Below the pieces are notes generated by a model. It was given only the letters and a program-made list of their open reading frames with translations, did not search any database and had not been told where the DNA came from. Shown piece after piece: positions 1 through 20,692 of a stretch of 21,232 nucleotides of DNA; positions within the stretch are counted from its first letter, which is position 1, and each line of letters opens with the position of its first letter. The stretch is from the IMG/VR virus record IMGVR_UViG_3300029286_003712, positions 1 through 21,232 of that record, one strand, 5' to 3'. Source of the stretch: a virus. The translations under genes and the position numbers were made by a program.

Positions 1-879
1 ATGAGTTGTATCTATCAAGATCCTAAATCAAAAATCTATATGGTAAAAGTCTCCGTACTTGGAAAGACCAAAACCCGATCGCTTAAAACCAAAGACCGGC
101 GAATCGCAGTAGCCCGTGCAAAGTCGGTTGAGACCAAACTATTCCTGGAATTCTACAATCCTGTCAAGCCGAATAATCACGCCACGAAAGACGAAATCTT
201 TGAACGATTCATTGCACACAAACAGAAACAAAATCGGAGCCTGAACACTCTCAGTATCTACCGTAAATGCTGGCTGAATTACACCCAGAAGCGACTTGAT
301 AACTTATCCTTCGAATATCGCAAACTTCACTACCGACATCTCAGCGCAATTTTCAACTTCGCCATCGATAATGGACTCGCAACCGAAAATCCTTTTAAGA
401 AACTTCCTAAAACTACGACACCCGTCATCAGTTATTACTCGGACACCGAGGCCAAAACTATCTTTAATAGATTACCCGATAACCGATTTGGAGACACTAT
501 GAAACTCTTCTTCCTGACCGGAATGCGCCTCGGTGAAATGGTCAACCTGAAACGCGAAGAAATCCTCTCAGATAAAATCATTCTGCATGGTAAAACAGGT
601 CGGCGTACAATCCCGACAACTCCTCCCATTCGTGATATACTTCAGCGCGATCGGATCTTCGATTGGAAATACAACACTCTCAGCGATGCCATGCGCCGGG
701 AAGGATTTTCCGCTACCAAAATCCGGCACACATTCGCAACAACCTTAGTGAAAAAAGGGATCTCGATCTATATTGTTTCCAAACTTCTCGGTCATAAGTC
801 CGTCAAAACGACCGAAACCTACTACGCTCACCTCGCGCCGGAAGAAATAAAAAATCATACGGAGTGGTTGGGGTGGTGA
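1..879 (+). CDS. int: Tyrosine recombinase / phage integrase, compact
   Basis: Site-specific recombinase that would integrate and excise the phage. The C-terminal half has the tyrosine recombinase signature: Arg176 in TGMRLGE, Lys198 in HGKTGR, Arg242-His243 in KIRHTFAT, His265 in LGHKS and a tyrosine nucleophile in TTETYY (274 or 275). The position that is usually His in the H-x-x-R motif is Thr239; other residues are tolerated there in some phage integrases. The N-terminus looks like an arm-binding domain, followed by a core-binding domain starting near SLNTLSIYR (about residue 80). At 292 aa the protein is short for a phage integrase, and the core-binding domain seems to lack roughly 20-25 residues between SIYRKCW and HLSAIFNFA, with no frameshift. 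The ATG is the first base of the window, so an upstream start and the ribosome binding site cannot be judged. It converges on the lysogeny genes. Confidence 0.9.
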   Translation: MSCIYQDPKSKIYMVKVSVLGKTKTRSLKTKDRRIAVARAKSVETKLFLEFYNPVKPNNHATKDEIFERFIAHKQKQNRSLNTLSIYRKCWLNYTQKRLDNLSFEYRKLHYRHLSAIFNFAIDNGLATENPFKKLPKTTTPVISYYSDTEAKTIFNRLPDNRFGDTMKLFFLTGMRLGEMVNLKREEILSDKIILHGKTGRRTIPTTPPIRDILQRDRIFDWKYNTLSDAMRREGFSATKIRHTFATTLVKKGISIYIVSKLLGHKSVKTTETYYAHLAPEEIKNHTEWLGW

Positions 880-1762: not shown

Positions 1763-2140
1763 TTATTTCTCAACTCCATCAAGTTCTCTTCTAATTATCT
1801 CGTACAATTTAGTCATTTCTTCTTCCGTAGGAGTCTGGCCACGAGCAGTCTTGAAGAATATAGGTAAATATTCCAAGACACGATTATCAGGTGCTAGTTC
1901 GCTTGGAGAACTTTCAAGAAAAGCCATATCTTTTAGATTTACATACTGTTCGGATGCAACACTAATACCTAGTGCTTCTGCAATCTTACTAAATGCCAAA
2001 TCAGTTTTGGGTGGTGCAGCGATACCTCTTTCAATTCGGCTCCAATAACTTGGATCGAATCCAGACCTTCTACAAAACTCGCGAAGAGTAACTCCTCTTT
2101 TTACTCTTTCCGCTCGAATCAGTTGACCTACACGTGCCAT
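1763..2140 (-). CDS. XRE-family HTH repressor
   Basis: DNA-binding regulator of about 125 aa, the likely phage or element repressor. The N-terminal helix-turn-helix spans roughly residues 5-60 (VGQLIRAERVKRG, then TLREFCRRSGFDPSYWSRIE); the C-terminal part is helical with no recognised domain. The frame is open up to an ATG at 2218, but the start at 2140 is preferred: AGGAGG lies 8 nt upstream of it, the HTH begins there, and the longer form would start inside the promoter. It forms an operon with the ImmA-like protease 71 nt downstream. The promoter overlaps a palindrome, which suggests autoregulation. This XRE plus ImmA arrangement is typical of prophages and integrative elements, and also occurs as stand-alone stress or TA-like modules. 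Confidence 0.85.
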   Translation of the reverse strand: MARVGQLIRAERVKRGVTLREFCRRSGFDPSYWSRIERGIAAPPKTDLAFSKIAEALGISVASEQYVNLKDMAFLESSPSELAPDNRVLEYLPIFFKTARGQTPTEEEMTKLYEIIRRELDGVEK

Positions 2141-2180
2141 TTGTTCATCCTCCTTTTTTTCATTGCTTGTTACAAATAAC

Positions 2181-2206
2181 GTGGACAATTTAGTCCACAC
2201 TTGTGG
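2181..2206. promoter_or_regulatory. Candidate repressor operator
   Basis: GTGGAC (2181-2186) and GTCCAC (2193-2198) form an inverted repeat around the exact -10 hexamer of the repressor promoter. A second, partly overlapping inverted repeat, CCACA-CT-TGTGG, lies in the spacer (2195-2206). Binding here would block RNA polymerase, so the repressor probably controls itself. The binding protein is inferred from proximity. Confidence 0.55.
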
Positions 2207-2215
2207 AATTGTCAA
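2187..2215 (-). promoter_or_regulatory. Sigma70-type promoter of the repressor operon
   Basis: Reading the minus strand, TTGACA (2215-2210), a 17-nt spacer and TAAATT (2192-2187) form a near-consensus promoter. Transcription would begin near 2180, about 40 nt before the repressor ATG at 2140, leaving room for its AGGAGG site. Confidence 0.7.
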
Positions 2216-2263
2216 CATTTTTTTTAAAAATGAAAAATTAAATTATTCAGTAACCAGATCTAT

Positions 2264-3753: not shown

Positions 3754-5345
3754 TACTCACTCTCCAATATTTTTTCACATGTAACTTCCGTAACCGGTTC
3801 CAATAGACCTCGCCTCCGTATAGTTACGATCCCAAGATCGGTACCGTCTATGATAACCCGATCAGCCAACCGAATATCACCGGGTTCAAACATTTTGGCT
3901 ATTGTGTCGGTTTGTATGCCCTCCATAACCGACTTATAGTAAGACTGAATGGCGTCCCATTCATTTTTTCGCACCCGGACGCCGTATGACGACACACGCC
4001 CCTCGCTATCCTCTTCGTACCGGTTAATATCAACCAACACGTCTTCCACCTTCGTTGTTTCTCGATTCATCTCAATAACGTTTCGACGCGGTATTGTAAT
4101 AGACCGTAAAGCCTCACCGCGAGGCAGTAGATAGACTTTGTTCTCCTGATCAACATAAACGTACGAATTAGTTAACACAGCCAGATCGTGCAGAATATCC
4201 ATCGCGCTCGCATCACGGTAAGTCATATTGTAATACTGATCGAAAGGCGTTTCAAATGACAAAAGCAAATCACGCCCAAGCAGATCATTGTACTTCTTAA
4301 GCGCGCGCGCGCTGACGTATGTATTCGTATCGTTGTAATCAACAACAGTCACGTCCATCAAACTGTCCGGATCGTATCCCTCTTCACTCAAAAAGGATCG
4401 AATCTTCTGGGTCGATATGTTTTCCGATGTAGATTTATTAACCCGTTTCCCATACAACGCCTCTAACGGCGGAACGTGATCCTCAAAAGGAAATAATGGA
4501 AAATACTCATGTGTCCGAACGTATTCAATTCCCCCATCCCGGCACAAATAGACCCAATATTTCGCTCCAATCGTCGGAAACTTCAAATCGAACGGCGGGA
4601 TCTTAAAGTGGAAATGAACCCAACTTCCCTTCTTTATTTTTGTAACTCCAAGATCGATCGTTGTCGGCGGAATACTGAAAGACCAATCTAAAAAACTCCC
4701 TTTTTCCCAGAAAGTTTTCATCTTAAACATCGCGTCTTCTTCAATCACATAATTACAACCCAGCCTATACCTGAAATGATAACCTCGGTCTTCAGAAAAT
4801 ACCAGATCAATCAGGTATGAGAGTAAACCTTGACGCGGCAATTTACGCAATACATTTCCAAAAAACTTTCTTACCGTTCCCGGAGCGACCTGAATAGTCG
4901 AATCATCGGCGATAAACATTAAGCCAATCCGGTCATAAACCGCCTGCAAAACCCTCTGGACAATTTCCTTGACAGACATTTGTGTTTTAGTGTCAAATTC
5001 TCTAACCGTCTCATCCTCGCCGGTATCAACTTCTTCGCCGATCTTTGTATCCTTTAGTTTGACCGAAGAAGAACAAATAGTCAATTCTTGAATCACAGAT
5101 GTATCTTCATCTATTTCATCAACGAATCCGGCAAATACCTTCTCGCCGGTTCCCGCGCGTTTGATCAGGATAGTATCATCTCTTTTTACCGATAAACCGA
5201 AAACCTTGAATGTCAGATCACTCGCTTCGAAGTCAAAGAGTCCCGTTCCCTTCCAGGACTCCTCGATGTAATCCGGAAAACTCTCAGCCAGAACCTTGCT
5301 GGTAATATTCTCGTCGTTCAGGTATATAAGCAGGCCGTCAATCAA
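3753..5345 (-). CDS. Tail hub / tail-associated protein (gpD-like position)
   Basis: 530-aa protein translated immediately after the tape measure. It starts at TTG, with TTGA overlapping the tape measure stop (4-nt overlap). The N-terminus (GLLIYLNDENITSKV, then DTILIKRAGTGEKVFAGFVD) resembles the first barrel of phage tail hub proteins, in which a local frame and an 'off' direction are followed by a domain that contacts the tube. The middle and C-terminal parts (DRVIIDGTDLGIVTIRR near the end) also fit hub or baseplate proteins. No peptidase motif was seen. The structural role is supported by position and general fold signals; assignment to a specific family is uncertain. Confidence 0.62.
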   Translation of the reverse strand: MIDGLLIYLNDENITSKVLAESFPDYIEESWKGTGLFDFEASDLTFKVFGLSVKRDDTILIKRAGTGEKVFAGFVDEIDEDTSVIQELTICSSSVKLKDTKIGEEVDTGEDETVREFDTKTQMSVKEIVQRVLQAVYDRIGLMFIADDSTIQVAPGTVRKFFGNVLRKLPRQGLLSYLIDLVFSEDRGYHFRYRLGCNYVIEEDAMFKMKTFWEKGSFLDWSFSIPPTTIDLGVTKIKKGSWVHFHFKIPPFDLKFPTIGAKYWVYLCRDGGIEYVRTHEYFPLFPFEDHVPPLEALYGKRVNKSTSENISTQKIRSFLSEEGYDPDSLMDVTVVDYNDTNTYVSARALKKYNDLLGRDLLLSFETPFDQYYNMTYRDASAMDILHDLAVLTNSYVYVDQENKVYLLPRGEALRSITIPRRNVIEMNRETTKVEDVLVDINRYEEDSEGRVSSYGVRVRKNEWDAIQSYYKSVMEGIQTDTIAKMFEPGDIRLADRVIIDGTDLGIVTIRRRGLLEPVTEVTCEKILESE

Positions 5346-8062
5346 CTTAATTTCTTCCGACTGGTTCTGGTTACTGCCTTCGCAATTCCGCGCTCGGTAA
5401 GATTGTTTCGCGTAGCGTAAATCGCAGACTCGACGCGCTCTAACCGATCTTCGAGTCCCTTTGTATTCATGGCGACATTTGTGCTAACTGCAGTGTTTAA
5501 CTTCGCCCGGAATTCGGGCATGACTTCAGTGTTCATATACCGCCGGAAGTTCTTTTCGGGAAGTACTAATTCACGGCCACTCTGTGCGACCGCCTCTCCG
5601 GCCAGCAACAATGTCGGTTTACTGATCAGTGCGCCTTCAGCCGCTTTAATGACCTTAGACGTCTTTCCCTTAAATGAACTGAGCAGGGCAATAATTCCAA
5701 CCATGGCCGCGCCGATTGCTATCAGACTAAAGGGAAATGGGATCGCCGCATTAGCAGACGCCGTCTTTGCCCCGGCTGTCGCCAATTCCGAACTCGCAAC
5801 GGCTGTGTTAGACGCAATCTTCGCCGTATCGACCGCTTGCTCAGCTGCAGTTGTGGCCACTTTCTCCCCAAACAACCAGTTCTGCACTGCGACTTTTTCC
5901 TTGGCCATCCATCCCTCAATCGCTACCTGTGTGACCGCCCACGCCTGAGTTATTCCAAGCGTATCGACTGTCCAGGCAATTAATTTCTGGCGCGCCCTTT
6001 CCAATACCGATTCATAAGCATCGCTGAACCCGCCACCGGTAATTATCCCCGTTATATCATCTTGCGCCTTTTTGTAAATATTAACCTTTTCCTCTGCCGC
6101 ATCGCGTTCTATATCCAACTGATTCATTTGAACCGCATAATCGCTATCGCTGATTTTTTTATTCAGACGATCGAGTTCTAATTGAAGTTTTTTCCGTTCT
6201 ATTATCTCCAATTCGTCGTTACTTTTGACAGCCGCAAGTTTATCGTTGAGTATTGTTTTTTGTGCGGCCAGACTCTTGTCTGCGCTAGTGTCCTGCGCCT
6301 CGTCAATTTCAATCTGCTGTTTTAACTGGCTGTATTTTAACAGCGCCTCGGCGTCGCCCGCGATCTTGGCAGCCTCGATCCTGGTATTCAGATACTGCAG
6401 GGCGCTTTTACGCGCTTCCGCCCGGCTTTTACCCTCAGCAATTGTCAGATACTCAACTGAGTTTTTAACGTCTTCTAATGTTCCCAGCCGCGCCGCGTCA
6501 GCCGTATTGATCTCGTTTATTCTGGCCTTGATCTGCTGGTATTCTAATTTCCGAGCCGTTGTCAGTTTATTATAAGCCCCAAAACCTTTTAGGCGATCAT
6601 CAAGATTTTTCCGTTCTTGACCGCTATTTTTCGCCTCCAATTCAGCCAGGGCTTTTCGGTCGTCAATCTCTTTCTGCGATAAAATTCCCGCACTTTTCAA
6701 TGTCGTTATCCGACTGTTTAGCGCCCCAATTATATTGTTATTTTCCTGTTTTTGAGCCTCGAGGTCAACTATTCTTTTTTTCCTCTCATCCGCCATCAGG
6801 TCGTTTTCATCACAGCGTATCCTTGAATTTCTCGCCACTACCAGTCCGCTTTGACCCAATTTCTTTACTTCGGCGTCTATCTGCTGGTTATTTTTCTGCC
6901 GAGCGTCGATTTCCTCTTGTAGTTTTCCAATATCATAACTGTTGGCAATTTCATTCAATAACGCCTGCAATTCCCTCAGTTTATCGACTTCTCCCTGCGT
7001 CTTTTGAATATGCCTGTTTTTAATCGCTAATATCACTTCGTAGGCGGCCGTGAGCGCGACGATTGCAATTCCCACCGGCCCCAGGCTGGCGTACAATCCT
7101 TTCAGCGCCACGCCGAGTCCCTTTAGCGACAAGCTTACCCCGGCCGTTTTAAGGCCGAAGGCCTGTAATATTTGCCCCCCATATTTAATCTTAACCACTA
7201 GCGCTACAACCCCGGCCGCAATAACTGTCGTATATCCCACCAGCCCCTGAATCGCTTGCCCCGCCTGATTAACCCCGCCGGTAATCTTGATCATAATCTC
7301 GGCAAAGGGGACTAGGGCGTTTTTAACACCGGCTCCGACGTTTTCCCTCATATCGCCAACCGTATTGGTTAACTGGATCAACTTTCCGGCATCGGTTCTG
7401 GCCAGCGCCTCGGCTTGATCACGGAAGCGCGCATTCACCCCGTCCAATAAATTTTGAAGACGCTTTTGCGAACCGACCGCACCTTCGACCTGAATCCCAT
7501 AACGTCCCAGGGCGTTAACATCCGACCCAATCGTCTTGGCCACCAAATCAGCGGCGCCTACTAGATCCATTCTCTGGGCCGATGCAAAATCCTGTGTTGC
7601 CTTGATAAGTGGCTTTAAACCCTTATCGTCGAGTTTGGTCATCGCCGCCAGCATGGCCGCCGCTTGCACGGTAGCGTCGTCGTCATAGACCGTTGCCCTT
7701 TGGCGTTCGGCCGCATACTCTTTCACCGAATCGACGGATTCCTTTGTATAGGTTCCGGCATTAATCATCGCCTGGGTTAGCGCCGCCTCGGCCTGCTCCG
7801 ACTCGTTTGATGCGACAATAAACTTGCGTAATGTGTTCGACGCTATGTTCCAGTAGAACGCTACCTGTTGTACCACCAAACCAAGTTTTATGAATGACCC
7901 CGCCATGCCATTGATCTTATTACTGGTTTTCTCAACCGAATCGCCGGTCTTGGTCGCAAAATCGTCAAACCGGCGGTTAAGACTGTTAAGGGATTCAACA
8001 ATCTGCTTTATATTGGCAACAACCTCTATTTCCATTCGCTCGTTTGACATTACGCCCGCCAT
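5342..8062 (-). CDS. Tail tape measure protein
   Basis: 906 aa, the longest gene in the window, which is usual for the protein that sets tail length and is ejected with DNA. It has the family architecture: an N-terminal helical region (VEKTSNKINGMAGSFIKLGL), hydrophobic Gly/Ala-rich segments near residues 275-345 (TVIAAGVVALVV; GPVGIAIVALTAAYEV), a long charged coiled coil about 350-660, another hydrophobic stretch near 800 (FSLIAIGAAMVGIIALL), and a C-terminal segment with SGRELVLPE, common in phage tape measures. It follows the chaperone pair. No strong ribosome binding site precedes ATG 8062; internal ATGs at 8050 and 8035 are alternatives. Its 5' end overlaps the candidate promoter of the plus-strand gene next to it. 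Confidence 0.88.
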   Translation of the reverse strand: MAGVMSNERMEIEVVANIKQIVESLNSLNRRFDDFATKTGDSVEKTSNKINGMAGSFIKLGLVVQQVAFYWNIASNTLRKFIVASNESEQAEAALTQAMINAGTYTKESVDSVKEYAAERQRATVYDDDATVQAAAMLAAMTKLDDKGLKPLIKATQDFASAQRMDLVGAADLVAKTIGSDVNALGRYGIQVEGAVGSQKRLQNLLDGVNARFRDQAEALARTDAGKLIQLTNTVGDMRENVGAGVKNALVPFAEIMIKITGGVNQAGQAIQGLVGYTTVIAAGVVALVVKIKYGGQILQAFGLKTAGVSLSLKGLGVALKGLYASLGPVGIAIVALTAAYEVILAIKNRHIQKTQGEVDKLRELQALLNEIANSYDIGKLQEEIDARQKNNQQIDAEVKKLGQSGLVVARNSRIRCDENDLMADERKKRIVDLEAQKQENNNIIGALNSRITTLKSAGILSQKEIDDRKALAELEAKNSGQERKNLDDRLKGFGAYNKLTTARKLEYQQIKARINEINTADAARLGTLEDVKNSVEYLTIAEGKSRAEARKSALQYLNTRIEAAKIAGDAEALLKYSQLKQQIEIDEAQDTSADKSLAAQKTILNDKLAAVKSNDELEIIERKKLQLELDRLNKKISDSDYAVQMNQLDIERDAAEEKVNIYKKAQDDITGIITGGGFSDAYESVLERARQKLIAWTVDTLGITQAWAVTQVAIEGWMAKEKVAVQNWLFGEKVATTAAEQAVDTAKIASNTAVASSELATAGAKTASANAAIPFPFSLIAIGAAMVGIIALLSSFKGKTSKVIKAAEGALISKPTLLLAGEAVAQSGRELVLPEKNFRRYMNTEVMPEFRAKLNTAVSTNVAMNTKGLEDRLERVESAIYATRNNLTERGIAKAVTRTSRKKLS

Positions 8063-8072
8063 CTATTATATT
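8044..8072 (+). promoter_or_regulatory. Near-consensus promoter for plus-strand membrane gene
   Basis: TTGACA (8044-8049), a 17-nt spacer and TATATT (8067-8072) on the plus strand, opposite to all surrounding late genes. The expected transcription start, near 8079, is only about 2 nt before the ATG at 8081, so the transcript would be nearly leaderless. The -35 lies within the first codons of the tape measure gene on the other strand. Confidence 0.55.
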
Positions 8073-8080
8073 TACTATTG

Positions 8081-8293
8081 ATGAGTGCCGAAGCCGAAAA
8101 ATTCAAATACGCAGTCCGAAAATCTTTTTGGGGTATCCTGATCAATATTTCCGCATTCGCTTTGATCGGGTTCATTTTTGCCGCCATATTTCCAAAACTA
8201 TATTTCCTCGGCTACCCGTTCGCAATTCTGCTTTTCTGTGCCCCCGCCCTTCTGGTTGGCTTTGCCGCGTGGGTCGCATGGAAAGACCTGTAA
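8081..8293 (+). CDS. Small two-helix membrane protein, candidate moron
   Basis: 70-aa protein on the strand opposite to the late block, filling the only large gap (8063-8302) in that block. A charged N-terminus (MSAEAEKFKYAVRKSFW) is followed by two hydrophobic segments, about residues 18-38 (ILINISAFALIGFIFAAIF) and 44-66 (YPFAILLFCAPALLVGFAAW), and a short charged tail: a helical hairpin in the inner membrane. It has no ribosome binding site, but a promoter at 8044-8072 would start the message at the ATG, consistent with leaderless translation. A TTG at 8078 is an alternative start. Small membrane proteins expressed from a prophage commonly alter superinfection or the cell surface; that role is inference. 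No homologue is recognised. Confidence 0.6.
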   Translation: MSAEAEKFKYAVRKSFWGILINISAFALIGFIFAAIFPKLYFLGYPFAILLFCAPALLVGFAAWVAWKDL

Positions 8294-8302
8294 TCGTTGA
8301 CA

Positions 8303-8560
8303 TTAGCGTTCTCCCCGGCTAAACTCGACTTTCATCTTCCACCACTCCAACGCTTCAGTCAGTGTCACACTTGAAGAGATCATTTTACCCTTCATGATGT
8401 CACCCTCGGCCAGCCCAAAAACGAGCATATCAATGAATTGTTCTTCAGTTGGTATTTCCGATTCATCTTCCAGTTCTTTAAAGAAATCGTCGTCTGCATT
8501 ATTTTCGGATTCAGTTAATTCTTTGATTTCACCAGAGAGTCTTTCAACTTCTTGATCCAC
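8303..8560 (-). CDS. Tail assembly chaperone, T-like part (reached by -1 frameshift)
   Basis: Downstream half of a G/GT-type tail assembly chaperone. As an independent ORF it would start at GTG 8560, but no ribosome binding site precedes that codon and its frame is open back to 8581. A -1 shift at 8575-8581 would fuse it to the preceding ORF, giving a G-T polyprotein, as in lambda GT and many siphophages. The sequence is acidic (ADDDFFKELEDESEIP), then helical, ending in ALEWWKMKVEFSRGER. It ends about 240 bp before the tape measure, whose folding and packaging such chaperones assist. The gene order and frame relationship make the assignment good; sequence similarity alone is weak. Confidence 0.7.
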   Translation of the reverse strand: MDQEVERLSGEIKELTESENNADDDFFKELEDESEIPTEEQFIDMLVFGLAEGDIMKGKMISSSVTLTEALEWWKMKVEFSRGER

Positions 8561-8847
8561 TCTCTGTTTAATGCCAAAAAATCAGTACCTATCTCCACCA
8601 ATACACTGTTACTCAGATCATCCCAAACGATCCCCTGTTTGTCACCAGTTAGGATAAGGTCCAGCGCCTGGTCGATCAGGTCGTTTTCGAGTAACCACTG
8701 GATTGCACTTTTTACATCTTTGATTTTTTTAAAATCCGGATTGTCTGAATAAGCCGCAACGAACTTGAGCACACGTTTTGTCTGCCCCAGTGTCATTTCA
8801 CCTTGATGTAATTCGCGTCCCTGTACCTGATACTTTCCTTGTTCCAC
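8515..8847 (-). CDS. Tail assembly chaperone, G-like
   Basis: Zero-frame product of about 110 aa, lying two positions upstream of the tape measure as lambda gene G does. It is mostly helical (MTLGQTKRVLKFV; AIQWLLENDLIDQALDLIL), which suits a small chaperone. Start choice: GTG 8847 has GAGG 5 nt upstream and is preferred; TTG 8868 gives seven more residues and overlaps the upstream gene by 8 nt but has no clear ribosome binding site. Most ribosomes should end at TAA (8517-8515); a minority would shift at 8575-8581 and make the longer G-T form. Assigned from position, length and the frameshift signal. Confidence 0.72.
   Translation of the reverse strand: MEQGKYQVQGRELHQGEMTLGQTKRVLKFVAAYSDNPDFKKIKDVKSAIQWLLENDLIDQALDLILTGDKQGIVWDDLSNSVLVEIGTDFLALNREWIKKLKDSLVKSKN
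8533..8581 (-). promoter_or_regulatory. Programmed -1 ribosomal frameshift signal
   Basis: On the minus strand the heptamer T TTT TTG (8581-8575) fits X XXY YYZ in the frame of the upstream ORF (GAT TTT TTG). An 8-nt spacer (8574-8567) leads to a perfect 8-bp stem, CAGAGAGT (8566-8559) with ACTCTCTG (8540-8533), around an 18-nt loop. Slipping back one base moves translation into the T-like frame (GGC ATT AAA CAG), giving one continuous protein. Geometry matches known -1 signals. Confidence 0.78.
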
Positions 8848-8860
8848 TTTAACCTCTTTT

Positions 8861-9643
8861 TTAATCAATAAATATCACTTCACCAGCAATATCAACCGCA
8901 TTTCCGATGAACACCTGACCATCTTCCGGCTGAGAAATCGTCACATAAAACTGTGTGACAAACGGTGTGATTCGAATGTAGTAATTACTCTCCGGTAGAT
9001 CGCTCAACTCGGAAGACTCAAACACAATTTCATGTTCATCCTCTCCACTGATACCATTCTCTCCGAATGTTTCGTAATCACAAATCCAGCCCGTCTGGTC
9101 TTCACGCGTATCGAATGACTTTACTATATTGGAAAAATCCTCATCGGTCGCTATGTCCAGGACAAAATTCATCAGCGACGGTCTGCAGGTTTTCTTATTC
9201 ACAAACATCAAATCGAAATATGGATCATTCGAGTACGGAAACACCACTCGCTTAATTTCCGTTACCGTAAAATCGATGACCGGAATTGTGTAATATTGTA
9301 TTTCAGAATCTATCCCGGATAGATACGACCGGTCGTTTAGAATTACCAGCACGCGCAGATTATTCCAGGATTGCATAACTCGCAGATCACCAGCCGCATC
9401 CCAGTTGAGTTTATATCGTTTCAGCCGACCAGTTAACGGGATCTCATTAAAATCATTCTCCTGTTCTGAGTAGGCCGTCGCCGGAAACCACTCTCCGTCA
9501 ATCTCAAATTGAATTTCTTTCACTGAACATGGATAATTGTATGGATTCTTTGCCTCGATCAGAATGCCCACTACGCCGGTTTCAGTATTAATATCTGCTC
9601 CAACGATTGAAAATTGTATCTCGTTCTTTGTTTTTACAATCAT
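8861..9643 (-). CDS. Beta-rich phage appendage protein with C-terminal DGQVFIG segment
   Basis: 260-aa protein, unrecognised as a whole, rich in predicted beta strands and acidic residues, with no signal peptide or membrane segment. It ends with QPEDGQVFIGNAVDIAGEV and six more residues. This ending looks like the first two strands of a bacterial Ig-like domain cut short, and it also ends two other proteins of the window. It overlaps the upstream Ig-like gene by 4 nt (start ATG 9643). Its neighbours, an Ig-like set upstream and tail chaperones downstream, suggest a virion decoration or tail accessory protein. Function unknown. Confidence 0.65.
   Translation of the reverse strand: MIVKTKNEIQFSIVGADINTETGVVGILIEAKNPYNYPCSVKEIQFEIDGEWFPATAYSEQENDFNEIPLTGRLKRYKLNWDAAGDLRVMQSWNNLRVLVILNDRSYLSGIDSEIQYYTIPVIDFTVTEIKRVVFPYSNDPYFDLMFVNKKTCRPSLMNFVLDIATDEDFSNIVKSFDTREDQTGWICDYETFGENGISGEDEHEIVFESSELSDLPESNYYIRITPFVTQFYVTISQPEDGQVFIGNAVDIAGEVIFID
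8883..8923 (-). repeat. 41-nt repeat encoding DGQVFIGNAVDIAG, copy 1
   Basis: Gene-terminal segment of the 260-aa protein. It differs from the copy at 20639-20679 at only three third-codon positions in 41 nt (GAT/GAC, TTC/TTT, GTT/GTA). It shares the core GGTCAGGTGTTCATCGGAA with the copy at 11404-11444. Confidence 0.85.
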
Positions 9644-9879
9644 TGTGTCACCTCAAAATTGACAACCTGATAGGGAAATGGATGAATGATGTTACCGAAC
9701 CGATCTAATCCCACAGCATAAATTTTATACCGCCCCACTGGCAACGTTAAACTTAATCCATGAGCAGTCGATTCCCACACTCGGACGTCACATTCACCCA
9801 GTCGGTCGTCTGTTTCCGGATTCGGGGATTCTCCCTTCATTTGGTAATACTTCACTTTAACAACGTCAAACGGATACAT
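9640..9879 (-). CDS. Small Ig-like domain protein
   Basis: 79-aa protein made of a single Ig-like module: an opening strand VVKVKYYQMKG, then LGECDVRVWEST and LPVGRYKIYAVGLDRFGN. The same pattern (K-V-K-x-Y ... LL..CDV ... L..G.HKIYGVAVD..GN) occurs in both genes upstream. ATG 9879 is chosen because GGAG lies 6 nt before it; a TTG at 9891 in the same frame would add four residues. It overlaps the LamG gene by 14 nt and the downstream gene by 4 nt, so translation is coupled. Probably a virion surface or tail decoration protein; the target is unknown. Confidence 0.62.
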   Translation of the reverse strand: MYPFDVVKVKYYQMKGESPNPETDDRLGECDVRVWESTAHGLSLTLPVGRYKIYAVGLDRFGNIIHPFPYQVVNFEVTQ

Positions 9880-10798
9880 CGATTTCTCCAAGATATGTAT
9901 TATTCAACTCCCCGGTCGTCCACTCGGCCGGTTCAGATACGTACATCGGTACCGGCAAACGTCCGATGTTATACACTGTCCCGGCCGCCGATTGATTACC
10001 ACTTAAATCAACCGCAACTCCGTATATTTTATGTCGACCCGCCGCTAATGACGATAAAGTTTTCAACCAGGCCGATTCATTATAAAGTGTGGTGATCTGA
10101 TCATCAGTCAGCGCGGAGTTGAACATTCTGACTCCATCAATTTTGCCTTTAAAATGGTAATAAGAGTGAGTAACATATCCCCAGCCGATACACATTGCTG
10201 TTGTTCCGGTTTTCAGGAGTCCAGTAGTCAATGAGGATGTGCTTTTCACACCATTTAAAAACCAATGTTGAACTGAGCCATCGAAACGCCAAACAACATG
10301 ATTCCAGGCATTATTCGTCGCATATGTCTGATGGTAAAGTGTGCCACTGCCGGTTATATGCGCGGTTTGTGCTTTTAACTGGCCATTATCTCCAACGAGA
10401 AATCGACTATTACCATATCCGCTAAGATTAACAATTAATCCGCCATTTCCGTTTAAATGCGGTGGTGTTGGATATATCCACCATTCGACGGTAATCGCGC
10501 CTGAAATTTGCAATGCGGAAACGATTGGAATCTCAACCCAATCATCCACGCCGTCGAACAACCCACAATTGCCAAAGCGTCCGGAATTAGAAATGACCGC
10601 GCCGTTAGCCTTACCATGCGAGATTCCGCCGGAATCAATTACTTCCCCTGTAGCGCCACTCCAAACACCCTCGTTGAATCTCCACCATGATGTATAGGAA
10701 ATCTTTGCATTTACATCACACGTTTCCAAGAGCGTATCTGTTGCGGGAGCGGAATTTGCTCCTAATTGTTTGTAGATTTTGACCTTGCTCGCGTCCAT
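9866..10798 (-). CDS. LamG-like domain protein nested in an Ig-like domain
   Basis: 310 aa. Residues about 35-240 form a concanavalin A-like LamG/laminin-G domain, with the motifs WWRFNEGVWSGATGEVIDSG, GLFDGVDDWVEIP, VEWWIYP, HVVWRFDGSVQHWFLNG and IDGVRMFNSALTDDQI; such domains typically bind glycans. The flanks are the two halves of one Ig-like module: ASKVKIYKQ...LLETCDV before it and LAAGRHKIYGVAVDLSGN after it, matching the uninterrupted modules next door. A C-terminal region of about 45 aa follows. It overlaps the preceding gene by one base and the next by 14 nt. A host-surface sugar-binding tail protein is likely; the ligand is unknown. Confidence 0.75.
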   Translation of the reverse strand: MDASKVKIYKQLGANSAPATDTLLETCDVNAKISYTSWWRFNEGVWSGATGEVIDSGGISHGKANGAVISNSGRFGNCGLFDGVDDWVEIPIVSALQISGAITVEWWIYPTPPHLNGNGGLIVNLSGYGNSRFLVGDNGQLKAQTAHITGSGTLYHQTYATNNAWNHVVWRFDGSVQHWFLNGVKSTSSLTTGLLKTGTTAMCIGWGYVTHSYYHFKGKIDGVRMFNSALTDDQITTLYNESAWLKTLSSLAAGRHKIYGVAVDLSGNQSAAGTVYNIGRLPVPMYVSEPAEWTTGELNNTYLGEIDVSV

Positions 10799-11298
10799 TA
10801 ACCAACCTTTAGCAGAAGAATCGTCACCCGATCGATATGCACGCCAATGTCAACATAGTTCAGGCATTTGTACTTGACCTTAATATCAAACGCCGATGCC
10901 TTTACGATCTGTCCAAAGCCCGTCATACTTCGCTCATAAGTATCCTCTGCCGAACCTATCAGTTGAACATCCAGACCGTTGCCATCACCATCCGCCAAAA
11001 GCAAAAATGGAATCGAACATGGAATTCCATCTATTTTCCCGTCTAATGATGTCAACCTTGCCCCTATCCAGACTAAATATGTTCCCGCAGGTATCGAAGA
11101 AAGCAAAGCCGCTGATGTTGCCCAAGTGTCTGTCATAGACGAGAAACTCGATGCGTCTGCCATCCGGTATTTGTAATACCCTTTCAGATCGCTCGCCTGA
11201 AAGTCAATAAAATTATCATTCACCTTATCAAAGGCGTCCCGTACCTTATCGCCGCTCTGCGCCCCGGCCGTGCCTAAGTTGATTGTCTGAACCGACAT
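10798..11298 (-). CDS. Tail appendage protein with fibre-type N-terminus
   Basis: 166 aa. The N-terminus INLGTAGAQSGDKVRDAFDKVNDNF is a short module found at the start of many phage tail and fibre proteins (G...SGD..R.AF.K.N.NF), probably an attachment segment. The remainder is beta-rich (AGTYLVWIGARLTSLDG; VKYKCLNYVDIGVHIDRV) and resembles a small jelly-roll receptor-binding head, which is inference. GAGGAGAAAAG lies upstream of ATG 11298. It follows the Ig-like gene after a strong hairpin and is joined to the LamG gene by a one-base overlap. Confidence 0.6.
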   Translation of the reverse strand: MSVQTINLGTAGAQSGDKVRDAFDKVNDNFIDFQASDLKGYYKYRMADASSFSSMTDTWATSAALLSSIPAGTYLVWIGARLTSLDGKIDGIPCSIPFLLLADGDGNGLDVQLIGSAEDTYERSMTGFGQIVKASAFDIKVKYKCLNYVDIGVHIDRVTILLLKVG

Positions 11299-11330
11299 CT
11301 TTTCTCCTCTTTGTACGATTTAACCGGAAA

Positions 11331-11354
11331 GGGGAGACTGTTGCCAGCCTCCCC
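11331..11354 (-). terminator. Intercistronic hairpin after the Ig-like gene
   Basis: GGGGAG (11331-11336) with CTCCCC (11349-11354), and inner CTG (11338-11340) with CAG (11345-11347), form a stem with a single mismatch and a TTGC loop. On the minus strand it is followed by TTTCC, so it could act as a partial terminator or protect the upstream mRNA. It lies in the longest gap of the appendage gene set. Confidence 0.45.
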
Positions 11355-11390
11355 AGTCCTGATTCACGTTTTAAAAGAACGTCTTACGAC

Positions 11391-12032
11391 TTACGAAGCC
11401 GTTCCACTGATGTCGATGCTTGTTCCGATGAACACCTGACCGTCAGTGATGTTCGTAACAACCGGCGCATTCGGAGCCGCTGTATCAATCGTGATTGCGA
11501 GTTCGGCGCCCTTCGCGCTCTCGTTATCCTTCTGATCGACCCACGTAGCAACCAGCGTGTGAACACCGTCAGACAGCGCAGTCGCGATCTGAAAAGTGGC
11601 ATAAAGAATTGCCGGCGCATTCAACGAAATCGTTGTCTGGGTCAGCAACAGATTATACGTGTCTGGCGCAGTCTTCTCGTACAACTTCATCGACTTGGCC
11701 GAAGATACCGGAATTGTTACTCCGCCGGGACCTGTGGTGAAATCGACTGACGCTTTGATCTGCGGGGTATTGTCGTTCGTGACATTGTCACTCGAACTTT
11801 CGCCGCTGTCATCCAGCAAATCGCACGACGGCGTATTCGTACAACCCGCCCGGATGTTTTTGATACCCGAAAACGCTCCGACATTGCCGGCAAGGTCTTC
11901 AGATTTCCCCTTGACCTTGTGATCACCTGCAGCTAATGTCTGCGCCGTTTTTGACCAGTTTGATCCACTCACCGCCACACTGGCAAGCAGAGTGGCATCA
12001 TCATAAATATGAACTTTTGTGGCATCTGCCAT
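11391..12032 (-). CDS. Multi-Ig-like domain virion protein
   Basis: 213 aa with two Ig-like modules and the beginning of a third. Module 1 (about 1-75) runs from TKVHIYDDATLLASV to LAAGDHKVKGKSEDLAGN and matches the two genes downstream. A linker with two Cys follows (CTNTPSCDLLDDSGESSSDN). Module 2 (about 90-190) has features of large bacterial adhesins (VTNDNTPQIKASV; LSDGVHTLVATWVDQ; LAITIDTAAPNAP). The last residues, DGQVFIGTSIDISGTAS, are the first strands of another module that stops at the stop codon. GGAG precedes ATG 12032 within the end of the small upstream gene. Likely a decoration or adhesive protein of capsid or tail. Confidence 0.75.
   Translation of the reverse strand: MADATKVHIYDDATLLASVAVSGSNWSKTAQTLAAGDHKVKGKSEDLAGNVGAFSGIKNIRAGCTNTPSCDLLDDSGESSSDNVTNDNTPQIKASVDFTTGPGGVTIPVSSAKSMKLYEKTAPDTYNLLLTQTTISLNAPAILYATFQIATALSDGVHTLVATWVDQKDNESAKGAELAITIDTAAPNAPVVTNITDGQVFIGTSIDISGTAS
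11404..11444 (-). repeat. 41-nt repeat encoding DGQVFIGTSIDISG, copy 2
   Basis: Gene-terminal segment of the 213-aa Ig-like protein. The first half (GACGGTCAGGTGTTC...GGAA) is nearly identical to the copies at 8883-8923 and 20639-20679. The second half is diverged in DNA while keeping the hydrophobic pattern. Confidence 0.75.
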
Positions 12033-12035
12033 AAG

Positions 12036-12194
12036 TTACTCCTTTCCCTTTTTCTCCGTTTTGATGACTTTCCAACCCCATTTTAATTTGACCGGAACCT
12101 TCTTGCGCATGACCTCGACGCGTATTCCGTCCGGGGTTTCCATCATTATTTTTTCATCGCCCTGTTTGTGGGCTATGTAACTCTCTCGACTCAT
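12036..12194 (-). CDS. Small basic protein, unknown (52 aa)
   Basis: Short ORF filling the gap between the lysozyme and Ig-like genes. ATG 12194 is preceded by GAGGAG, and the TAA stop is 3 nt before the next ATG. The sequence (MSRESYIAHKQGDEKIMMET at the start; KLKWGWKVIKTEKKGKE at the end) is soluble and strongly basic at the C-terminus, with no recognised motif. The end of the gene carries the ribosome binding site of the Ig-like gene, which indicates coupling. Function unknown. Confidence 0.6.
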   Translation of the reverse strand: MSRESYIAHKQGDEKIMMETPDGIRVEVMRKKVPVKLKWGWKVIKTEKKGKE

Positions 12195-12231
12195 AACTAC
12201 TCCTCATTTCTGTGTCTATCCATGTTCATGA

Positions 12232-12678
12232 CTAAACCTTTCCTGTCAGCAGCATCATTCGCAGTTCATAGGCACGCTGGCCAGGTTTTTGACCTACCTG
12301 TCTATACCAGGCCGAATCTTCCATCTGTTTCGCCGCCTCATTGAAATTCCCTGCTTTGATCGCCGCAATAAATCGCTTGAACTGGGAAAACGTATTGTAG
12401 CCCATGTTCAGCATCATGTTGATCAGTACTTCCTGTCGGACATCATCCAGTAAGTCGAAATTCAGAAACATTCGTTTGCAATCATTGATCGAATCATTTA
12501 TATCGTTTTCTAACATGAACTCCGCCTCGGCTTCACTGATCCCTCTTTCTTCGATGTTACGTCCGATTCCGATCGTCAACTTTCCTGCCGAGCATCGATA
12601 CGGGAATAACCGACCATTTTTCACTGGACCTGTTCCTTCATGCTGTACAAGCATCTCTTTCAACCGATCGTGGTTCAT
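12232..12678 (-). CDS. Phage lysozyme (endolysin), GH24 T4-like
   Basis: 148-aa muramidase that would cut the glycan chains of peptidoglycan at lysis. The catalytic Glu14 in QHEGT, Cys29 in PYRCSAG and Thr35 in KLTIGIGRN follow the E ... D/C - five residues - T pattern of T4-type lysozymes, with Cys in the place of the Asp20 of T4 lysozyme, a known variant. The E-to-C distance is longer than in T4 lysozyme, because of a small insertion (TGPVKNGRLF). The C-terminal part (VLINMMLNMGYNTFSQFKRF; AAKQMEDSAWYRQVGQ) is typical of the family. No signal peptide is seen, so release would depend on the holin, whose gene overlaps its start by 4 nt. Confidence 0.9.
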   Translation of the reverse strand: MNHDRLKEMLVQHEGTGPVKNGRLFPYRCSAGKLTIGIGRNIEERGISEAEAEFMLENDINDSINDCKRMFLNFDLLDDVRQEVLINMMLNMGYNTFSQFKRFIAAIKAGNFNEAAKQMEDSAWYRQVGQKPGQRAYELRMMLLTGKV

Positions 12679-13058
12679 TTCGTCAGACCTTTCTGCTTTT
12701 CATAACTCCGCATTCCGGCCAGACCGAGCATTCCGAAGATTAATTCGGTCATGATCCCATCCACGCTCGTGTCAAATGGTGGTAACGTATAATGAAAAAA
12801 ACCACCCGCGATCCACAGCGCTATTGGATATACGATAATCCGGAAACCGATCGACAGCGCCAGCATCCAGCCTAAAAACGGCCGCCAGCCCGCCAGGAAG
12901 ATTGACCGCGTCTGCAGTTCGGCTATCGATATATCCGCCTGCATCTTCGCCATGACTTCAGCCTTGGAAAGCCGTTCATCATCGGACGTAAAAACCCTGT
13001 CAATCGCATTTCCGACCGCATCAATCGTCTTCGTCGCAGTATTGCCAAACAGTCCCAC
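12675..13058 (-). CDS. Holin, 3-TM type
   Basis: 127-aa membrane protein upstream of the lysozyme. It has a soluble amphipathic N-terminus of about 50 residues (DERLSKAEVMAKMQADISIAE), then SIFLAGWRPFLGWMLALSIG and IIVYPIALWIAGGFF as membrane segments, and a weaker third (LIFGMLGLAGM) before a charged tail. This matches the 3TM phage holin family (Pfam Holin_3TMs), including the RPFLGW-type motif after the first helix. The start is GTG with GAGG 10 nt upstream. It forms pores that release the lysozyme and set lysis timing. Confidence 0.85.
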   Translation of the reverse strand: MGLFGNTATKTIDAVGNAIDRVFTSDDERLSKAEVMAKMQADISIAELQTRSIFLAGWRPFLGWMLALSIGFRIIVYPIALWIAGGFFHYTLPPFDTSVDGIMTELIFGMLGLAGMRSYEKQKGLTK

Positions 13059-13062
13059 GAAT

Positions 13063-13314
13063 TTATTTCCTCATGCTCTGTCCCAGATCGTCAATCTTGG
13101 TCTCGATCCGGTCCAGTCGTTTGATGATCTGTTTATTTTCTGTCCTGGCTTCAATCATAGAGCCTTCCACCTCGCGAACGCGGATGTCTATCTTATCGTG
13201 ATCTACGTCCACCTTTGCGGAAACCCTTTTGACGCGCCGGTCAAACGATGTAATCGAAAAAATCAAAATCGTTACCAAAATTGAGGCAAATGAAATCAGT
13301 ATTTCCCATTCCAT
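13063..13314 (-). CDS. Membrane-anchored coiled-coil protein (lysis-associated)
   Basis: 83 aa: an N-terminal transmembrane helix (EILISFASILVTILIFSI, residues 3-20), then a basic patch (FDRRVKRVSAKV) and a coiled coil to the end (ENKQIIKRLDRIETKIDDLG). ATG 13314 is selected because GGAGG lies just upstream; the frame is open to 13359 but that part overlaps the previous gene. Directly before holin and lysozyme, a single-helix coiled-coil protein could be a Rz-like inner-membrane spanin or a holin regulator. A lipoprotein partner was not found, so this stays tentative. Confidence 0.6.
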   Translation of the reverse strand: MEWEILISFASILVTILIFSITSFDRRVKRVSAKVDVDHDKIDIRVREVEGSMIEARTENKQIIKRLDRIETKIDDLGQSMRK

Positions 13315-13324
13315 CTCGCCTCCG

Positions 13325-13726
13325 TTAAACGATCGCCTCGAGGTCAAACGCATCCGCAATGTTCGGAGTGTTGGAGAGTTTCTCGATTGCGATCTTGGTT
13401 TTCAGGCTGTCAATTGACGGGATGATGTTGGTCGGGGCGCTTATGACAATCTTTTTGCCCTTAACAGTGAACCGGATTTCGACCGAGTCGATTGTCGGGT
13501 CTTGGATGTTACCCAGATCGGTCGTATCCAACTGTGAAAAAGTCACATCTGCCTTCGCAAGGTACGCATACAGGTCTTTCGACCCGTCTTCAATGTCTTC
13601 ACTCTGCGGTTCGACGGAAAAAGCAACGGAGTCTTTTTTCAAACCTTCCAGTTTGAATTTTTCGACCTCTCCGGCCAGTAAGACCAGATTAAACGGTCCG
13701 TTAATTACTTTCGTTTTGTCTAACAT
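13325..13726 (-). CDS. Candidate major tail tube protein
   Basis: 133-aa acidic, soluble protein with strand-rich segments (GPFNLVLLAGEVEKFKLEG; VEIRFTVKGKKIVISAPTN). It follows the connector and tail-completion genes, where the tail tube is expected. It is shorter than most siphophage tube proteins and no signature was recognised. The other possibility is a further head-tail joining protein, but then no tube gene would be present in the window. Assignment is mainly from order. Confidence 0.45.
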   Translation of the reverse strand: MLDKTKVINGPFNLVLLAGEVEKFKLEGLKKDSVAFSVEPQSEDIEDGSKDLYAYLAKADVTFSQLDTTDLGNIQDPTIDSVEIRFTVKGKKIVISAPTNIIPSIDSLKTKIAIEKLSNTPNIADAFDLEAIV

Positions 13727-20377: not shown

Positions 20378-20692
20378 ATGGAAGAGAAAGACAATGAGCA
20401 AGATAAAAAAGGCGGATTTTGTTTTGTAGAGCGCCCGATTGTTATAAAAGCGGGAAATGTAAACATTAAAATTACGCCATCAATGTCAATCATCGGTGAA
20501 GATTACTCCCAAGAAGAACCGCCGTTTGACCCCAAAAATCCTGTTGTTGTTCCCATGAAAAATGGTCAAATATTAATGGGATTTAAAATAGATATTGGTG
20601 TTTACGATCCGCCGTCCACCGGGATTACTTCGCCGGTAGACGGTCAGGTGTTTATCGGAAATGCGGTAGATATTGCTGGAACAGTCGAATAA
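20378..20692 (+). CDS. Small protein with C-terminal DGQVFIG segment
   Basis: 104 aa, no signal peptide. An acidic disordered start (EEKDNEQDKKGG) leads to a beta-rich core (IVIKAGNVNIKITPSMSII; VPMKNGQILMGFKIDIGVYD), and the last residues are TSPVDGQVFIGNAVDIAGTVE. The ending copies that of two late-block proteins 9-12 kb away on the opposite strand. GGAAGGAG precedes the ATG at 9 nt. It is followed after 12 nt by the secreted CsgG-like gene, so the two probably share an mRNA. A virion-associated or surface-assembly role is suggested by the shared end but is unproven. Confidence 0.6.
   Translation: MEEKDNEQDKKGGFCFVERPIVIKAGNVNIKITPSMSIIGEDYSQEEPPFDPKNPVVVPMKNGQILMGFKIDIGVYDPPSTGITSPVDGQVFIGNAVDIAGTVE
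20639..20679 (+). repeat. 41-nt repeat encoding DGQVFIGNAVDIAG, copy 3
   Basis: Third copy, in inverted orientation relative to the copies at 8883-8923 (38 of 41 bases identical) and 11404-11444. All three lie at the end of a gene, followed within 21 nt by its stop. Confidence 0.85.

Follow-up and report, generated by a model that had tools for sequence, protein, structure and literature searches.

A probable -1 programmed ribosomal frameshift in putative tail assembly chaperone genes of a phage contig from a metagenome collection

Introduction

In phage lambda a -1 frameshift yields gpGT beside gpG, an arrangement widely conserved in long-tailed phages (PMC5009743); a preliminary description of the DNA studied here had likewise pointed to the G-T fusions of lambda and many siphophages, and the literature agrees. 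The locus analysed here lies in a viral record of 21,232 nt (IMGVR_UViG_3300029286_003712, the whole of which is called the window below), and all elements of the candidate signal are on its minus strand. The slip sequence of lambda is GGGAAAG, unlike the TTTTTTG of the window. As in lambda, a short chaperone and a rare -1 fusion would be encoded upstream of the tape measure gene (PMC5009743), but no sequence homology is detectable between the lambda and window proteins.

The same slip sequence is known from phage P2, where E and E+E' arise by a -1 shift at TTTTTTG that no hairpin follows (PMC3091744). In P2 and the Burkholderia P2-like phages KS5, KS14 and KL3, two products from one start are encoded beside the tape measure gene by a -1 shift at TTTTTTG (PMC3091744), as proposed here; none of the four has a predicted downstream hairpin, whereas the window has an 8-bp stem, and P2 itself is a myophage with no protein homology found to the window. 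Signals of the dnaX type likewise combine a heptamer with a downstream stem and possibly with an SD-like site lying 10-14 nt upstream, but the heptamer is A_AAA_AAG (PMC5009743), the gene is unrelated, and the SD-like site of the window is weak. Among T-type heptamers, those that work best in E. coli have a pyrimidine as their last base, and U_UUU_UUG is not among the most efficient (PMC4066793), so a moderate rate, with the stem helping, would be expected, judging by E. coli, which may not be the host. A literature search for a TTTTTT slip together with a tail assembly chaperone gave no result.

The evidence presented here makes it very probable that a -1 programmed ribosomal frameshift in the window yields two tail assembly chaperones, in what seems a well-supported further case of the known G/GT frameshift class, with slip sequence and arrangement both already known. 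The annotation would thereby be corrected from two genes to one fusion and one short protein, in an otherwise unmatched phage whose putative chaperones are recognised by no family model.

Results and Discussion

The upstream reading frame, ORF1 (8515..8847, minus strand; 110 aa), runs from GTG 8847, with AGAGG 5 nt upstream and an in-frame TTG at 8868 as alternative start, to TAA 8515. Nineteen codons ahead of this stop lies the heptamer T_TTT_TTG (8581-8575, minus strand), phased GAT TTT TTG within the zero-frame codons GGT ACT GAT TTT TTG GCA TTA AAC AGA GAG TGG ATC AAG. The second frame, ORF2, is exactly -1 relative to ORF1: a -1-frame TGA (8584-8582, minus strand) abuts the 5' side of the heptamer, leaving this frame open only from the slip site, from where it continues for 90 codons (8303..8575, minus strand) to TAA 8305-8303. 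Both the zero-frame phase of T TTT TTG and a second frame exactly at -1 and open from the slip had been proposed earlier, and both hold on the minus strand. The heptamer alone carries little weight, since TTTTTTR heptamers occur in the window 20 times against 21.4 expected, without enrichment.

The stem-loop downstream of it is more telling. The minus strand of the window holds 114 XXXYYYZ heptamers (Y being A or T), and of these TTTTTTG 8581-8575 alone is followed, 4-12 nt downstream, by a perfect stem 8 bp long or longer. After an 8-nt spacer, GCATTAAA, the arms CAGAGAGT (8566-8559) and ACTCTCTG (8540-8533) pair perfectly around an 18-nt loop, each of these measures agreeing with the preliminary description, and the predicted fold places an inner 4-bp TCAA/TTGA helix within the loop (8555-8552/8547-8544). 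This putatively stimulatory stem-loop (8533..8566, minus strand) has an energy of -15.5 kcal/mol and a z of -3.18, with none of 200 shuffles equally stable. When the codons downstream of the slip were synonymously recoded in 3000 trials, such a stem appeared in 0.3% of them and a fold of equally low energy in 0.8%. Close to the start of ORF1, however, a 60-nt stretch has a fold of slightly greater stability (-19.0 vs -17.3), so the argument draws on position and conservation and not on stability alone. An intrinsic terminator was considered for the stem-loop and rejected, with no T run after the stem and none predicted.

Relatives were sought through the capsid protein, which led to L002, L003 and L004 (22 loci in all), with capsid identities to the window of 84% for L002 and 41% for L004. 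L002 is the only close relative covering the chaperone region, and its contig alone was returned again by a search with the neighbouring gene. Neither ORF1 nor the tape measure protein, searched directly in viral contigs and phage records, gave a match; genome collections scanned with alignments of ORF1 and the capsid protein gave no relative, and nor did phage records for the chaperone of L004. Streptomyces phage Kumquat (MCP 30%) was set aside: no frameshifted chaperone is annotated in it, and its genes are ordered differently.

Both frames are present in L002, the zero-frame protein being 58% and the -1-frame protein 39% identical to those of the window, and T_TTT_TTA occupies the same codons as T_TTT_TTG. 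Its stem (GCGGATGG/CTATCCGC; 8 bp with one G-U pair, spacing 10, z -3.57) differs in sequence and starts two nucleotides further downstream, and a perfect 8-bp stem arose in 0.2% of synonymous recoding trials. The two contigs therefore offer a natural comparison, in which the slip site is retained and the stem sequence replaced. Past the overlap, their -1 frames differ at 28, 22 and 42 first, second and third codon positions in 63 codons, an excess at third positions that is as expected for a coding -1 frame.

Further away, the heptamer of L004 is T_TTT_TTT; the gene that holds it matches PHROG 1442, tail assembly chaperone (E 5e-20), and 5 nt separate the end of the -1 frame from a tape measure gene, itself matched by Pfam PhageMin_Tail and many PHROGs. 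The fold downstream of the L004 heptamer is no better than chance (z -1.1). Other capsid relatives carry A_AAA_AAG near the 3' end of the gene that precedes the tape measure gene, within its last codons, and the -1 extension is 46-49 codons long in one set (L007, L008, L017-L022 and L024) and about 103 codons long in another (L009, L011, L012, L015 and L025), the extensions of L012 and L015 ending at contig ends; many of these contigs being near-identical, they are counted as two groups and not as fourteen cases. The -1 frame of the L009 group holds its own in-frame GTG, which makes frameshifting less secure there. In three members of this group (L009 at 3341, L011 at 3679 and L025 at 2265) A_AAA_AAG abuts the zero-frame stop (AAAAAAGTAA), and the -1 frame runs on for 103 codons ahead of the tape measure gene.

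Conservation in related phages had been put forward as a check on the frameshift, and heptamer and stem are indeed kept in L002, with a slippery heptamer and a -1 frame in L004 and the two groups. This comparative evidence makes chance, a sequencing indel and independent starts unlikely, and lends support to the G-T fusion through U UUU UUG suggested at the outset. A sequencing or assembly indel that split one gene could be suspected on the grounds that this viral contig was taken from a metagenome collection and that the junction falls in a T6 homopolymer; the same -1 arrangement, however, recurs in the independent contigs L002 and L004, the former with a stem of its own, and the probability left to such an error is practically negligible. 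Slippage of RNA polymerase on the T run, giving -1-frame mRNAs, could also connect the two frames, the run being T6 in the window and L002 and T7 in L004. It is nevertheless short for this kind of slippage, the phase of the heptamer and the stem downstream fit slippage by the ribosome, and the capsid-related groups have AAAAAAG instead, so that a transcriptional origin seems extremely improbable.

A third alternative has two separate proteins, with ORF2 starting by itself at GTG 8560, perhaps coupled to translation of ORF1 opening the stem. A start codon does stand at this position in both the window and L002, where it is ATG, and the alignment there reads VDQE in the window and MDQE in L002. 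This NTG arises, however, because the zero frame keeps a Trp codon, TGG, in both (GAG TGG in the window, GGA TGG in L002), before which all but one of the four bases yield a start-like codon, and it is thus weak evidence for independent initiation. Neither GTG 8560 nor the ATG of L002 is preceded by an SD at a workable distance, in keeping with the earlier remark that the GTG of ORF2 has no ribosome binding site; both codons lie within the stem, and ORF1 ends 43 nt (window) or 85 nt (L002) beyond them, so that ordinary re-initiation would have to reach back too far. Since separate initiation would also leave the heptamer and the new stem unexplained, we regard it as very unlikely.

Under the -1 programmed frameshift, most ribosomes would finish ORF1 at TAA 8515, releasing the short G-like protein of 110 aa. 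A minority would pause at the stem-loop with UUU in the P site and UUG in the A site, both tRNAs would move back by one base onto UUU UUU, and reading would go on in the -1 frame as GGC ATT AAA CAG ... to TAA 8303. The predicted product from GTG 8847 is a G-T-like fusion of 182 aa with the junction ...IGTDF(L/F)-GIKQRV..., for which the predicted tryptic junction peptide is QGIVWDDLSNSVLVEIGTDF(L/F)GIK. If lambda is a guide, the short form would coat the tape measure protein and the T part of the fusion would recruit the major tail protein. The analysis shows the sequence elements described, their conservation and the conserved -1 coding frame; the slippage, its rate and the chaperone role we infer.

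A weak SD-like GGAG (8593..8596, minus strand), whose end lies 11 nt upstream of the slip, may act as a stimulator and add a third element to the signal. Similar elements precede the slip in L002 (GGAGG, 13 nt) and L004 (GAGG, 10 nt), with p values under synonymous recoding of 0.08 for the window, 0.04 for L002 and 0.11 for L004, each of them no more than suggestive. It is tempting, if rather doubtful, to see three stimulators working jointly here (the SD-like site, U_UUU_UUN and a rapidly evolving stem), and to suppose that, with A_AAA_AAG in the capsid relatives, the slip sequence was switched during evolution and the frameshift kept.

The identity of the proteins is less directly approached, as neither ORF1 nor ORF2 has a match in the Pfam or PHROG families. 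A structure model of ORF1, built from a three-sequence alignment (mean pLDDT 77), found nothing below E 0.9 by Foldseek against the PDB; against BFVD several of the named matches are tail assembly chaperones, all weak, with E above 0.03. In a structural comparison with ten PDB chains the best two were YqbN (3klu, Z 3.5), a member of an XkdN-like chaperone family, and, at Z 3.4, the tail assembly chaperone of HK97 (2ob9), both weak resemblances. The putative chaperone of the window and its counterpart in L004 are only 22% identical and hhalign gave no support for their homology. The chaperone role of ORF1 is thus suggested mainly by its position before the tape measure gene and by the frameshift arrangement, together with a weak resemblance in fold.

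The next gene on the same strand after the chaperone pair is that of the tape measure protein (5342..8062, minus strand; 906 aa; PHROG 27166, tail length tape measure, E 3.3e-4). A small ORF of the opposite strand intervenes (ATG, 8081-8293, plus strand; 70 aa, hydrophobic), which has no match in PHROGs and looks like a moron. A candidate promoter with an 11/12 match to sigma-70 (TTGACA-17-TATATT, 8044-8072, plus strand) precedes it, the -10 ending 8 nt ahead of ATG 8081, and the mRNA of this ORF is possibly leaderless. L002 is without this insertion, and its tape measure ATG follows 3 nt after the T stop.

No ORF of the window is matched by PHROGs or Pfam as a major tail protein; 13325-13726 is a candidate by gene order only, separated from ORF1 by lysis and fibre-like genes. 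These genes, holin-like (GTA_holin_3TM), lysozyme-like and fibre-like, occupy 8861-13359 (minus strand) between the candidate and the chaperones, in an unusual order that L002 shares in outline. A 57-nt inverted repeat (88%; 8883-8939 and 20623-20679) links the ends of two opposite-strand ORFs; a motif related to that of the repeat, GQVFIGNAVDIAG, is found within ORF 11391-12032, and if the copies recombined, some 12 kb could be turned round or the fibre-like genes reshuffled. A tyrosine integrase (Pfam; 1-879, plus strand) and a regulator that by eye looks helix-turn-helix-like (1763-2218, minus strand) suggest a temperate phage.
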